Below, piece by piece: positions 8,794 through 31,527 of a DNA stretch of 34,025 nt (position 1 is the stretch's first letter; every line of letters begins with the position of its first letter). The DNA is taken from NCBI GenBank assembly GCA_007134465.1, contig SLKS01000340.1, positions 1 to 34,025 of the forward strand, in the 5' to 3' direction. The stretch is from Kiritimatiellia bacterium (GTDB taxonomy: Bacteria; Verrucomicrobiota; Kiritimatiellia; UBA8416; SLMC01). A model generated the notes under the pieces. The model did no database searches. It was not told the origin of the DNA and worked only from the letters and a program-made list of their open reading frames with translations. A program made the position numbers and the translations under genes.

Positions 8794-8820
8794 TGTCCCG
8801 AGCGCCGTGCCCGTCCAATT

Positions 8821-8901
8821 CCGTCTGATCTGTCCGATCCGTCGGATTCGTCTGACAAGCCGGACCTGTCAGACCCGTCGGACCTGTCGGACAAATCGGA
8901 C
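8821..8901. repeat. Nine contiguous degenerate 9-bp units (consensus about CYGTCNGAY), halves approximately inverted
   Basis: ccgtctgat ctgtccgat ccgtcggat tcgtctgac aagccggac ctgtcagac ccgtcggac ctgtcggac aaatcggac. Confidence 0.9.
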
Positions 8902-18018: not shown

Positions 18019-18050
18019 GACCCAAGACGGGCTTCGCCAGCAACCCAAGT

Positions 18051-18182
18051 GGTCGGAAATCAGAGGTCGGAGGTCACGGAACACGACTACGGCGACGACT
18101 ACGGGGGACGACCTGCCCGCAGTGCTACAGCGTTGCAGGCGGGCTTCTGTCACTCGTAATCCGTAGTCGTCGCCGTAGTCGT
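18051..18182. repeat. 7-bp tandem block (18051-18078) followed by a perfect 22-bp inverted repeat of a 12-bp-period motif
   Basis: GGTCGGA AATCAGA GGTCGGA GGTCACG; arms 18083-18104 ACGACTACGGCGACGACTACGG and 18161-18182 CCGTAGTCGTCGCCGTAGTCGT are exact reverse complements, with GCCCGC...GCGGGC nested between. Confidence 0.9.
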
Positions 18183-20696: not shown

Positions 20697-20773
20697 CCGC
20701 CGCCTGGCGTTGAACAGGCGAAGCACGGGCTTGCACGGACACGCATGAACATTCTCTGAAACAGGCTTGTTGG

Positions 20774-20919
20774 CGGGCTTGCGCCCGCAACCCAACGAAG
20801 GATACTCTCGCCAAGACACCAAGAACGCAAAGAACCGACTCTGCTTGGCGAACTTTGCGGCTTTGCGAGAGAAACAGTTGCAAAAGACACGCGCAAAACG
20901 TGTATCCTTGTCGGAAAGG
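20774..20919. repeat. Composite intergenic element, copy A
   Basis: 20774-20795 CGGGCTTGCGCCCGCAACCCAA; about 20807-20877 array of 9-bp units with inverted halves; 20891-20919 GCGCAAAACGTGTATCCTTGTCGGAAAGG. Confidence 0.8.
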
Positions 20920-20924
20920 GTTTT

Positions 20925-21818
20925 ATGCCTGTGCAAATAACTGGCTCCGCTTTTCCCGCGCCGCAACCGCTGATCGCGCGGGCCTGCCGCACGGGCGAAG
21001 GCCCGCTTTGGCATCCGGACGAACAGCGCATCTACTGGACGGACATTCCGGCCTGCCGACTCTACCGCTGCGCGGCCGACGGATCGGAACAGGAAGCGTT
21101 CGACACCGGCGAGCCGACCGGCGGCATTGCCTTGCAGGCCGACGGCGCTTTGGCTCTGTTCATGGCCCGCGGCGCCGTCCGGCGCTGGAAGCACGGCCGC
21201 TTCGAAGACACGCTCCTCGAAGAGATTCCCGCCGAACGCGATTCCCGTTTCAACGATGTCGTTGCCGATCCGCGCGGCCGCGTATTCGCCGGGACCATGT
21301 CCAGTCCGGCCCATGGCGGACGCCTTTACCGACTCGATCCGGACGGCACGCTCGCTCTGCTCGCCGAGAATATGGGCACGCCGAACGGCATGGGCTTTTC
21401 GCCAGATCTGCGCTTCTTCTATCAGAACGACTCGCGCGCGGCCTGCCTGTACCGTTATCGCTACGACGAAGCCTCCGGTTCCATCGCCGAGCGCGAAACC
21501 CTGTTCGAAGCGCGAGCGGAAGACGGCAAAGGCCGACCCGACGGCCTGACCGTGGACGCGGACGGCTGCCTCTGGACGGCCCGCTGGGACGGCGCATGCC
21601 TTGTCCGGCATGCGCCCGACGGCGAACCGCTTGCGGACATGCCGTTCCCGGTTCGGAAAGTGTCGAGCCTGACGTTCGGCGGCGCCGGATGCGACACGCT
21701 GTTCGCCACGACGGCCGGCGGCGACCGGCCGGACGAAAACGGCGCCCTGGCCGGCGCTTTGTTCGTTTGCCGCGCCATGCCCGTGCGCGGCCGGCCCGAA
21801 TACCGCTCCCGGCTCTGA
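20925..21818 (+). CDS. SMP-30/gluconolactonase/LRE family protein
   Basis: GEGPLWHPDEQRIYWTDIPACRLYRC, DSRFNDVVADPRGRVFAGTMSS, NGMGFSPDLRFFYQNDS, RPDGLTVDADGCLWTARWDGACLVRHAPDG. Confidence 0.92.
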   Translation: MPVQITGSAFPAPQPLIARACRTGEGPLWHPDEQRIYWTDIPACRLYRCAADGSEQEAFDTGEPTGGIALQADGALALFMARGAVRRWKHGRFEDTLLEEIPAERDSRFNDVVADPRGRVFAGTMSSPAHGGRLYRLDPDGTLALLAENMGTPNGMGFSPDLRFFYQNDSRAACLYRYRYDEASGSIAERETLFEARAEDGKGRPDGLTVDADGCLWTARWDGACLVRHAPDGEPLADMPFPVRKVSSLTFGGAGCDTLFATTAGGDRPDENGALAGALFVCRAMPVRGRPEYRSRL

Positions 21819-23117: not shown

Positions 23118-23188
23118 GGCATTCGTTCTCCGTTTCGCGTTGGAAGGCCTTCAACAAACAGACCATTCCCGAACTTTCCAAATACGTT

Positions 23189-23208
23189 CGTGTCTTTGCC
23201 GGAAAGGC
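23189..23208. repeat. Partial copy (C) of the composite element tail module
   Basis: 19-nt identity (23190-23208 GTGTCTTTGCCGGAAAGGC) with 29018-29036. Confidence 0.8.
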
Positions 23209-23233
23209 CTATTGTCACGGAGCTGTCGCGGTT

Positions 23234-27855: not shown

Positions 27856-28938
27856 ATGATTGACCGCCGTCAAATCGAAAAGAGGCTGAACCGCCTGCAG
27901 GAACTCGAAAGCGAGCTGGCGCAACCGGACTTGGCCAAGCGCCCCGCCAAGCTTCGCCAGTTGGTGCAGGAGCATGCCGCGCTCAAGAAACTGGGCGAAA
28001 AATCCGACCGCTATTTCCGGCTGGCGACACAGATTGAAGAGAACGAAGCGATGGTCGCGGCGGACGAGACGGACGCCGAACTCAAGGCGCTGGCGGAACA
28101 GGATATCGAAGAATGCCGGCCCGCGCTCGAAACCGCGCGCGCCGATTTGCTTGTCGCCCTCTTGCCGCCCGATCCGACCGCCGCCCGCAATGCGATCATG
28201 GAAATCCGCGCGGGCACCGGCGGCGACGAAGCCGGCCTGTTCGCCGCCAACCTGTTGCGCATGTATCAGCGCTATGCCGAATCGCACGGCTGGAAAATCG
28301 GCATGATCGACGCCCATGCCGGTTCGATGGGCGGCTGCAAGGAAGCGGTATTCATGGTGGAAGGCGACAACGCCTACGGCACGCTGCGCTTTGAAAGCGG
28401 TGGCCATCGCGTGCAGCGCGTGCCGGTCACCGAGTCGCAGGGCCGCATCCACACGTCGGCCGCGACCGTGGCCGTGTTTCCGGAGGCGGAACCCGAAGAC
28501 GAGATCGAATTGCCGGCCGACGAACTGCGCGTGGACATTTTCTGCTCGTCCGGACCCGGCGGACAAGGCGTCAACACCACCTATTCGGCCGTGCGCGTAA
28601 CGCATCTGCCAACGGGCATCGTTGCGCAAAGCCAGGACGAACGCTCTCAGCACCGCAACCGCGAAAAGGCGCTCACCGTACTCAAGTCGAGAATCCTCGA
28701 CGCCCGCCGCCGGGAAGAGGAAGAGCGACAAGGCCGCAACCGGCGCTCGCTCATGGGCTCCGGCGACCGCAGCGAGCGGATTCGCACCTACAATTTCCCC
28801 CAGAACCGCGTCACGGACCACCGCATCAATCTCACGCTGTACAATCTGGATGCCGTCATGGAGGGGGATTTGGAAGAGTTGCTGGCCGCGCTGCGCCAGC
28901 ACGATCAGAACAGCCGGCTCGAAGAGCAAACGGCTTAA
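27856..28938 (+). CDS. prfA: Peptide chain release factor 1
   Basis: [48 protein letters not shown] (PxT motif); [25 protein letters not shown] (GGQ). Confidence 0.96.
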
Positions 28939-28940
28939 CT

Positions 28941-29036
28941 CGGGCTGCGCCCGCAACCCAATTTGTTTTTCCACCACGGAATACGCGGAACACACGGAAA
29001 AATGCGCGCAAAAACGTGTGTCTTTGCCGGAAAGGC
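28941..29036. repeat. Composite intergenic element, copy B, between prfA and prmC
   Basis: 28941-28961 CGGGCTGCGCCCGCAACCCAA; three 9-bp units 28973-28999 (accacggaa tacgcggaa cacacggaa); 29006-29035 GCGCAAAAACGTGTGTCTTTGCCGGAAAGG. Confidence 0.85.
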
Positions 29037-29044
29037 ACGGCATT

Positions 29045-29920
29045 ATGGCGGAAGGTATCCCGGATCGCACTGTGGACGCAGTCCTGCGCGGCGGTGCCGA
29101 CTGGCTCGCTCGCCGGGGCGTCGACCAGCCTCGCATCGCCTGCGAATTGTTGCTGGCCCGGCTGCTGGCCCGACCGCGGCTGTCGTTGCACCTGATCGGC
29201 GACCAAACGCTCGACGACCGCCGGCTCGAAGCCATGCGTCGGGGTTTGCGGCGGGTGGCAGCCGACGAGCCGGTCCAGTACGTAACCGGGCAAGCCGAGT
29301 TCATGGGCCATGTCTTCGCTACCGACAAGCGCGCCCTGATTCCCCGCCCCGAAACGGAAGTTCTGGTTCGCGAAGTTCTGGCCTGCGCTCCCTTGTGGCA
29401 GGACAAGACGCCGGCCATCGTGGATGCGGGAACCGGGTCCGGCTGCATTGTGCTTAGCCTGGCTCTGGAACGGCCCGCCGCGCACTATATCGGGCTCGAC
29501 ATCAGTCCGGACGCCGTGGCGCTGGCCCAGGAGAACCGGCAAGCTTTGGGTGCGCAAGACCGCGTTGCGCTCGCCGAGGGCGAACTGGCCGATACGGTCG
29601 AACCCGGCATGCTGGACGCGCTGGTATCGAATCCGCCCTACATTCCTACTTCTGTCTGGGAAACGCTGCCCGCGCACATTCGCGAGCATGAGCCGCGGCT
29701 GGCGCTCGACGGCGGCCCCGACGGGCTGGCCGTTCTCGAGCAGATGGTGCAGGACGCGACCTTCGCTCTCAAGCCGCAGGGTCGGCTATTTCTGGAAATC
29801 GGCTACGATCAGGGGCCGCGCGTCCGCGCGCTGTGCGAGGAAGCCGGATTCGCCGACATCGTCGTCGCGCCCGACCTGGCCGGCCGCGACCGCGTCGTCC
29901 ACGCCCGCTGGCCGGGGTGA
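29045..29920 (+). CDS. prmC: Release factor glutamine methyltransferase PrmC
   Basis: QYVTGQAEFMGHVFATDKRALIPRPETEVLV; VDAGTGSGCIVLSLALERP; LDALVSNPPYIP (NPPY motif). Confidence 0.95.
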   Translation: MAEGIPDRTVDAVLRGGADWLARRGVDQPRIACELLLARLLARPRLSLHLIGDQTLDDRRLEAMRRGLRRVAADEPVQYVTGQAEFMGHVFATDKRALIPRPETEVLVREVLACAPLWQDKTPAIVDAGTGSGCIVLSLALERPAAHYIGLDISPDAVALAQENRQALGAQDRVALAEGELADTVEPGMLDALVSNPPYIPTSVWETLPAHIREHEPRLALDGGPDGLAVLEQMVQDATFALKPQGRLFLEIGYDQGPRVRALCEEAGFADIVVAPDLAGRDRVVHARWPG

Positions 29921-31165: not shown

Positions 31166-31527
31166 TCTTGGGCCGCCGTATCGAAGCGCAGCGAGCCTGT
31201 GGCCGGCCTTCCCAAGACCCCCAGGCCGGGGGAACGGGGGACGGAACGGAACCGAATCGGCCCGTGTGGGGCCGCGCCGGTCGGCGTCGGGATGGCCGGG
31301 GAAGCCGGAGGGAACAGAAGACCGCGTTATGCGCACGTTGGCGGCGGAAGCGAGGAGCGACTGCACCGCAGATTCCGCATTAACGCCCACGTCGTCATAA
31401 CGCGCTTCTGTTCAGGGAGGACGCCGCAGGCTTTGCGCAGGCGGACGACCGGCCTCCGGCAAGCATGAACGCGTGCCGAGCTTGTCCGGCAAGCTTCATG
31501 CCCCCGGCCATCCCGACGCCGTCCGGC
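31166..31527. repeat. Nested inverted-repeat region (candidate structured RNA or palindromic mobile repeat)
   Basis: Exact 20-bp IR 31282-31301/31502-31521; inner IR about 31323-31343/31388-31408; hairpins 31166-31172/31211-31217, 31203-31209/31223-31229 and AGCTTG-tccgg-CAAGCT near 31479-31495. Confidence 0.75.

Follow-up and report, generated by a model that had tools for sequence, protein, structure and literature searches.

The spacer between prfA and prmC in this Kiritimatiellia genome is filled by an element of about 110 bp that belongs, with a probability of about 0.72, to a family of non-autonomous, mosaic small interspersed repeats of the Kiritimatiellia, similar in kind to BOX and NIME. 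The element is probably a passenger, a regulator only secondarily. The family offers a concrete example of a repeat in bacteria whose ends are constant while its middles are interchangeable, together with a clean pair of filled and empty sites and a statistical link to stop codons; what is less usual about it is that, in a class that has been little studied, cores are exchanged within a constant frame. A search of the literature on the core strings, including the ACCACGGAA 9-mer type, and on Kiritimatiellia repeats found nothing relevant.

The window, that is, the whole stretch of 34,025 nt that was analyzed, is contig C144 of a genome of 3.99 Mb in 409 contigs, all of which were searched. Both genes were named by passing NCBIfam equivalog cut-offs (PRK00591.1/TIGR00019 for prfA and TIGR03534 for prmC), and the sequence between them reads CTTAACTCGGGCTGCGCCCGCAACCCAATTTGTTTTTCCACCACGGAATACGCGGAACACACGGAAAAATGCGCGCAAAAACGTGTGTCTTTGCCGGAAAGGCACGGCATT, followed by ATG. 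The parts of the locus are these:

27856..28938, + strand: prfA, peptide chain release factor 1, 360 aa (NCBIfam); its stop, TAA at 28936-28938, is part of the element's left terminus
28934-29041: the element, with approximate borders from the family alignment
28934..28971, + strand: module 1 (m1), CTTAACTCGGGCTGCGCCCGCAACCCAATTTGTTTTTC (nhmmer 35.6 bits; alignment of copies)
28941-28945 and 28949-28953, + strand: stem of m1 in this copy, CGGGC / GCCCG
28973..28999, + strand: core of three 9-mers, ACCACGGAA TACGCGGAA CACACGGAA, one type among many interchangeable cores
29000..29041, + strand: module 3 (m3), a diverged copy of the family consensus AAACATACACGCAAAAGCGTGTATCTTTTTGAAAAAGGCTCTAA (nhmmer 37.5 bits; family alignment)
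29002-29008 and 29015-29021, + strand: hairpin of m3 in this copy, ATGCGCG / CGTGTGT, then CTTTGCCGGAAAGGCACGGC
29029..29035, + strand: GGAAAGG, a possible Shine-Dalgarno sequence, 9 nt before the prmC ATG
29045..29920, + strand: prmC, release factor N5-glutamine methyltransferase, 291 aa (NCBIfam); ATG at 29045-29047

Further members or fragments of the family lie elsewhere in the window:

18021..18053, + strand: a further m1 copy without m3, followed by a different repeat core (GAGGTCGGAGGTCACGG...)
20767..20925, + strand: copy A, the same m1 and m3 around an inverted-repeat core, CGCCAAGACACCAAGAACGCAAAG..CTTTGCGGCTTTGCGAGAGA; its right end directly adjoins an ATG
23179..23209, + strand: an isolated 3' part of m3 (GTGTCTTTGCCGGAAAGGCC)

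A preliminary description of this DNA had already placed an element between prfA and prmC, and its presence there was confirmed far beyond chance, the best other copy in the same genome matching with an E value of 4e-29. That description also had the element begin 2 nt after the prfA stop; in fact, the stop is overlapped, since its TAA falls within CTTAA|CTCGGGC. The claim that the element ends before the prmC ATG is sound, with the right border at about 29041, 3 nt before the start codon, but the span of 28941-29047 given for it takes in the ATG and had to be corrected. The further claim that copy A shares m1 and m3 with the prfA-prmC copy and differs in its core is borne out by nhmmer, which scores 15.6 bits for m1 and 25.0 bits for m3 in copy A.

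Searching the whole genome with the element gave 51 matches at E<=10, and such a number of matching places identifies a dispersed repeat rather than a local curiosity. The census of copies was drawn from the match lists and from the stretches retrieved around them. Alignment of the copies gives YTAAGGCGGGCTNCGCCCGCAACCCAATTTG as the consensus of m1, and the modules stand in the order m1, core, m3 on one strand; this fixed order was found in 37 locus entries with a composite, a few of which overlap. Between the same m1 and m3 lie at least six types of core: direct 9-mers of the ACCACGGAA type, as at prfA-prmC; inverted 9-mers, ACTACGAAA...TTTCGTAGT; CCATGAAGGGCATGAAG types; the CGCCAAGACACCAAGAACGCAAAG core of copy A; AAATCTGAAATTTC types; and, in the congener G001, inverted heptads (GTGTGTGGGTATGTGGG...). 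A further repeat (CCCGCCTTCGCAAAGCCTACGGCGAGGCAAG) is nested at one point in some of the cores. An alternative right module, TCTTGTTTTTTTCGGCAGGACGGCGTGATTAAGGCGCTAAGG, is also paired with m1, and this combination is the one usually seen in G001. Elsewhere in the class, in other families, wholly different cores lie between the same two modules, m1 and m3 (L280, L282, and L284; G073, G082, and G150). In G099, m1 and m3 are separated by 16 nt only (ATAACTCGGCTAAAAC), a nearly core-less form that may be the bare element.

The core can also be found on its own. In 25 stretches of viral contigs (L243-L267), a bare 9-mer core of the ACCACGGAA type, often as an inverted pair, lies between unrelated flanks, and no m1-core-m3 composite was found in the viral contigs searched. 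Because the 9-mer core occurs there without its frame, the two appear to spread independently of each other. A further dispersed repeat, GAGATTCCTCG...CTCGGAATGACA, also forms part of the intergenic mosaics in which the m1/m3 family occurs (L013, L003, and upstream of prmC in L108).

Within the class, the distribution of the family is patchy and bursty. In the genome of the window, 45 exact matches to the m3 pattern were counted, against none for a reversed control pattern; the m3 pattern is present in 8 of 193 genomes of the class, and the reversed control in none. Outside the genome of the window, the congener has one exact m3 copy, G062 and G099 of family f17 have 8 and 9, and there are few in the rest. 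The exact m1 consensus pattern was counted 39 times in the genome of the window and 24 times in the congener and is present in three other genomes. In addition, the composite occurs in the Kiritimatiellae MAG STD1_155, where the position of m3 matches that in G082 of the same class; the PrmC of STD1_155 is only about 46% identical over its length to that of the window, yet a 29-nt stretch of m3 is 97% identical to the query. Such an uneven distribution in bursts, together with the conservation of the ends, speaks for mobility.

The best proof of insertion comes from argB-argD, where a filled site can be compared with a nearly perfect empty one. In the genome of the window, a composite of about 165 bp lies exactly between the TAA and the ribosome-binding site of argD, while the bin contains another argB-argD locus that encodes proteins 87% and 88% identical and is empty. 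The empty locus reads GAGATCTAA GCTGAGGAACGGAACCT ATGAGC and the filled locus CAAGCTTAA (GGCGGGC...GGCAC)TAA AGGAGAAGA ATGAGC, with the composite in parentheses. TAA thus stands on both sides of the composite, and the length of argB is kept. This arrangement is consistent with a 3-bp duplication, seen at this one site, where the TAA may also be the element's own. argB and argD overlap or lie less than 30 nt apart in most relatives of the order and in the family member G002. The two loci in the bin (L242 and L212, on C200 and C292 of G000) are either a paralogous pair or derive from a related second population that was co-binned.

At prfA-prmC, the comparison is less direct. The two genes are normally close: in most genomes of the order in which they are neighbors, they overlap or have less than about 60 nt between them. 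Several lineages of the order have their own unrelated, often repeat-rich spacers at this junction (about 395 nt in G026 versus about 0 in three congeners). Looking for an empty site, as had been proposed, gave a divided answer: the order's other families have the two genes overlapping or almost in contact, but no empty prfA-prmC site was found within the genus or family, prfA and prmC being apart in the nearest relatives, G001 and G002. In G001, prfA is closely followed by AAGGCGGCCTTCAGCCGCATCCC, a relative of m1 with another core; either m1 predates the split of the species and the core was changed, or a site of this kind was hit on two occasions. A check of the order for an element conserved at this junction across relatives, which would have marked an ancestral leader, found nothing alike. 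The prfA-prmC element is not an ancestral leader, and it was probably inserted at this very site.

For the other copies, orthologous gene pairs in G001 were obtained directly in one case among the contigs examined and by protein search in one more. At these two orthologous junctions, the two genomes carry different repeats, and the spacers of the pair found by protein search are unrelated in sequence (MAFFT). In an apparent ornithine aminomutase-type operon, the genome of the window has inverted TAAGTGT heptads at the junction (L292, 1314-1500), and the same junction in the congener (L098, 6413-6564) has an m1-heptad-m3 composite. In contig C181 of G001 (L092/L286), a composite lies between apparent MNT nucleotidyltransferase and HEPN toxin-antitoxin genes, named by sequence inspection only.

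The left end of the element coincides with stop codons more often than chance would allow. With gene ends judged by a coding model trained on the genome of the window, the stop falls at one single offset, in the terminal TAA/TGA of m1, at 14 of 40 m1 sites that face the 3' end of a gene in two genomes. Where an upstream frame reaches m1, it stops at that terminal TAA/TGA in 13 of 18 cases and reads on in 5 (P about 0.0009); with random frames, one third would stop at the terminus, and 12 of 18 would read into m1. The prfA-prmC copy follows this rule, the prfA stop lying inside CTTAA. Furthermore, the right terminus carries the TAG/TAA of genes on the opposite strand (offset -4; L008, L010, L014, and L017) or abuts start codons in copy A, L032, L035, and L092. 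Stop codons supplied by the termini of repeats have already been reported for GTAG REPs (PMC3733652), which makes this feature less surprising.

One way to explain these data is that the element donates the TAA: insertions would have occurred in the 3' ends of genes, and only those fused in frame to the TAA would have persisted, with no targeting of stop codons. TTAA does belong to the consensus of the element even where no gene ends, and the congener's prfA continues for 4 more residues. However, argB is of equal length with and without the element, and the 5 of 18 frames that read into m1 fall well short of the 12 expected by chance. Donation of the TAA is therefore possible but doubtful. 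A wider and rather speculative hypothesis is that mobile mosaic repeats throughout the class have hairpin ends that target stop codons, duplicating the TAA, so that tight operon junctions are entered without damage to genes, unrelated cores are exchanged within the frame that the ends provide, and spacers are repeatedly rebuilt from cassettes. If such targeting were true, it would explain how short repeats colonize operons without breaking genes, and it would give a handle both on the enzyme that spreads them and on the uncoupling of translationally coupled gene pairs.

As to how the repeat may move, the parts of the genome examined yielded neither an autonomous parent nor a mobilizing gene bearing m1 and m3 at its ends. 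Distances of more than 260 nt between m1 and m3 occur only three times in the retrieved stretches of G000 and once in those of G001. The ends of the element show at most 7 of 14 ungapped inverted-repeat identities in any copy, which is not convincing. There are five Y1_Tnp genes in the genome of the window, and this would suit repeats of the REP/REPIN type that are mobilized by RAYTs (Y1 tyrosine transposases), as would the report that REP termini donate stop codons to flanking ORFs and that GTAG REPs occur in the PVC superphylum (PMC3733652). However, the m1 hairpin has a GTAG-like context in only 2 of 37 copies and CGTC in 0 of 37, and the Y1_Tnp genes are not systematically flanked by m1/m3: the one at L081 has m1 copies nearby, and the others have no flanking m1/m3 pair. 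A RAYT-driven REP family is consequently unlikely.

The non-autonomous mosaic repeat favored here has its closest counterparts among other repeats of this kind. Like BOX of Streptococcus pneumoniae (boxA-boxB(n)-boxC; PMC3049150), the family consists of small, modular intergenic repeats, BOX having about 100 copies per genome, with conserved outer modules, a variable middle, hairpins, and an apparently parasitic nature; the likeness concerns architecture, and BOX is reported to be nearly confined to a few streptococci (PMC3049150). However, the middle of BOX consists of copies of one boxB module rather than of unrelated short-period repeats, and BOX has known TIRs and TSDs, whereas the m1/m3 family shows no clear TIRs and its left end coincides with stop codons. 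The neisserial NIME (dRS3 + RS; PMC3898611) likewise combine conserved short palindromic modules with diverse longer repeat units into intergenic mosaics, but dRS3 (ATTCCC N8 GGGAAT) is present in 0 of 37 composites, and the left and right modules of the m1/m3 family differ from each other and are fixed in order and orientation. REP/GTAG palindromes and BIMEs (PMC3733652) resemble the family as palindromic extragenic repeats near genes, with stop-giving termini and mosaic combinations; unlike them, it has no GTAG/CGTC tag, and no RAYT gene flanked by the modules was seen in the DNA examined. Correia termini (TATAG[CT]GGATTAA) were found in 0 of 37 composites. In general terms, the family behaves as a MITE, being short, non-coding, multi-copy, absent at an orthologous site (argB-argD), and patchy in the class.

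The effect of the element on the prfA-prmC pair is most likely mild. The proposal that m1 together with a T-rich tract terminates prfA is unsupported and unlikely for this copy: a terminator scan found no terminator-like site on the + strand of the element, and the m1 hairpin is weak (-8.3 kcal/mol, z -1.1). The scan called one such site only on the - strand, over m3. This site, and the resemblance of consensus m3 copies to intrinsic, bidirectional terminators, would fit a mobile transcription terminator or insulator like SPRITE of S. pneumoniae (PMC3049150), whose terminator-like stem with A-tract and T-tract ends recalls the m3 consensus; ATACACGCAAAAGCGTGTATCTTTTT with its upstream A-tract would then terminate both ways. 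However, m3 is only the right part of the composite, and the prfA-prmC copy has lost the T-run, reading CTTTGCC, with no terminator called on its + strand. Furthermore, copies lie inside operons (argB-argD and the apparent MNT-HEPN pair in G001), in which complete termination would shut off the second gene. A terminator role of this kind is thus quite improbable.

A different functional reading is that the element is a conserved cis-acting leader or attenuator of prmC, or a 3' processing element of prfA, acting as a structured RNA. It occupies the entire spacer, is co-directional with both genes, has hairpins, and sets a possible ribosome-binding site before the ATG at its right end. Nevertheless, it is not conserved at the prfA-prmC junction in any relative, and its copies stand at unrelated genes; Rfam gives no match, and the window copy does not fold better as RNA than its shuffled versions do (z -0.19). 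In a covariation test, changes in the m3 stem pairs did not exceed shuffled expectation, giving no sign that copies are kept for RNA structure; the excess of G-U over A-C pairs in m3 (13 versus 8) largely reflects one inherited subfamily variant and hence is unusable. Taken together, these results make a conserved RNA element very unlikely. GGAAAGG had also been suggested as a ribosome-binding site. Its position, 9 nt before the ATG, makes this plausible, but its strength is weak or ordinary (anti-SD pairing of -4.1 kcal/mol): in the genome of the window, 64% of gene starts pair at least as strongly, and 32% of random stretches reach -4.

If the element is a mosaic repeat that moved into this junction, insertion at or beside the prfA stop would have made the TAA its left edge and left the prmC start a few nucleotides past its right edge. 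The repeat would probably be mobilized by a trans-acting enzyme recognizing its hairpin ends, and cores would be swapped or nested over time. Because the element stands between two genes whose counterparts in relatives overlap or almost touch, translational coupling of the pair has probably been lost. Transcription would mostly read through the element, and prmC would be started from the ordinary ribosome-binding site at the end of m3.

Two other repeats were observed in the window. At 31276-31527, there is an inverted repeat, unrelated to the m1/m3 family, whose 26-nt arms are 96% complementary and 200 nt apart, and at 8811-8901 lies a degenerate 9/18-nt tandem array (CCGTCGGACCTGTCAGAC).
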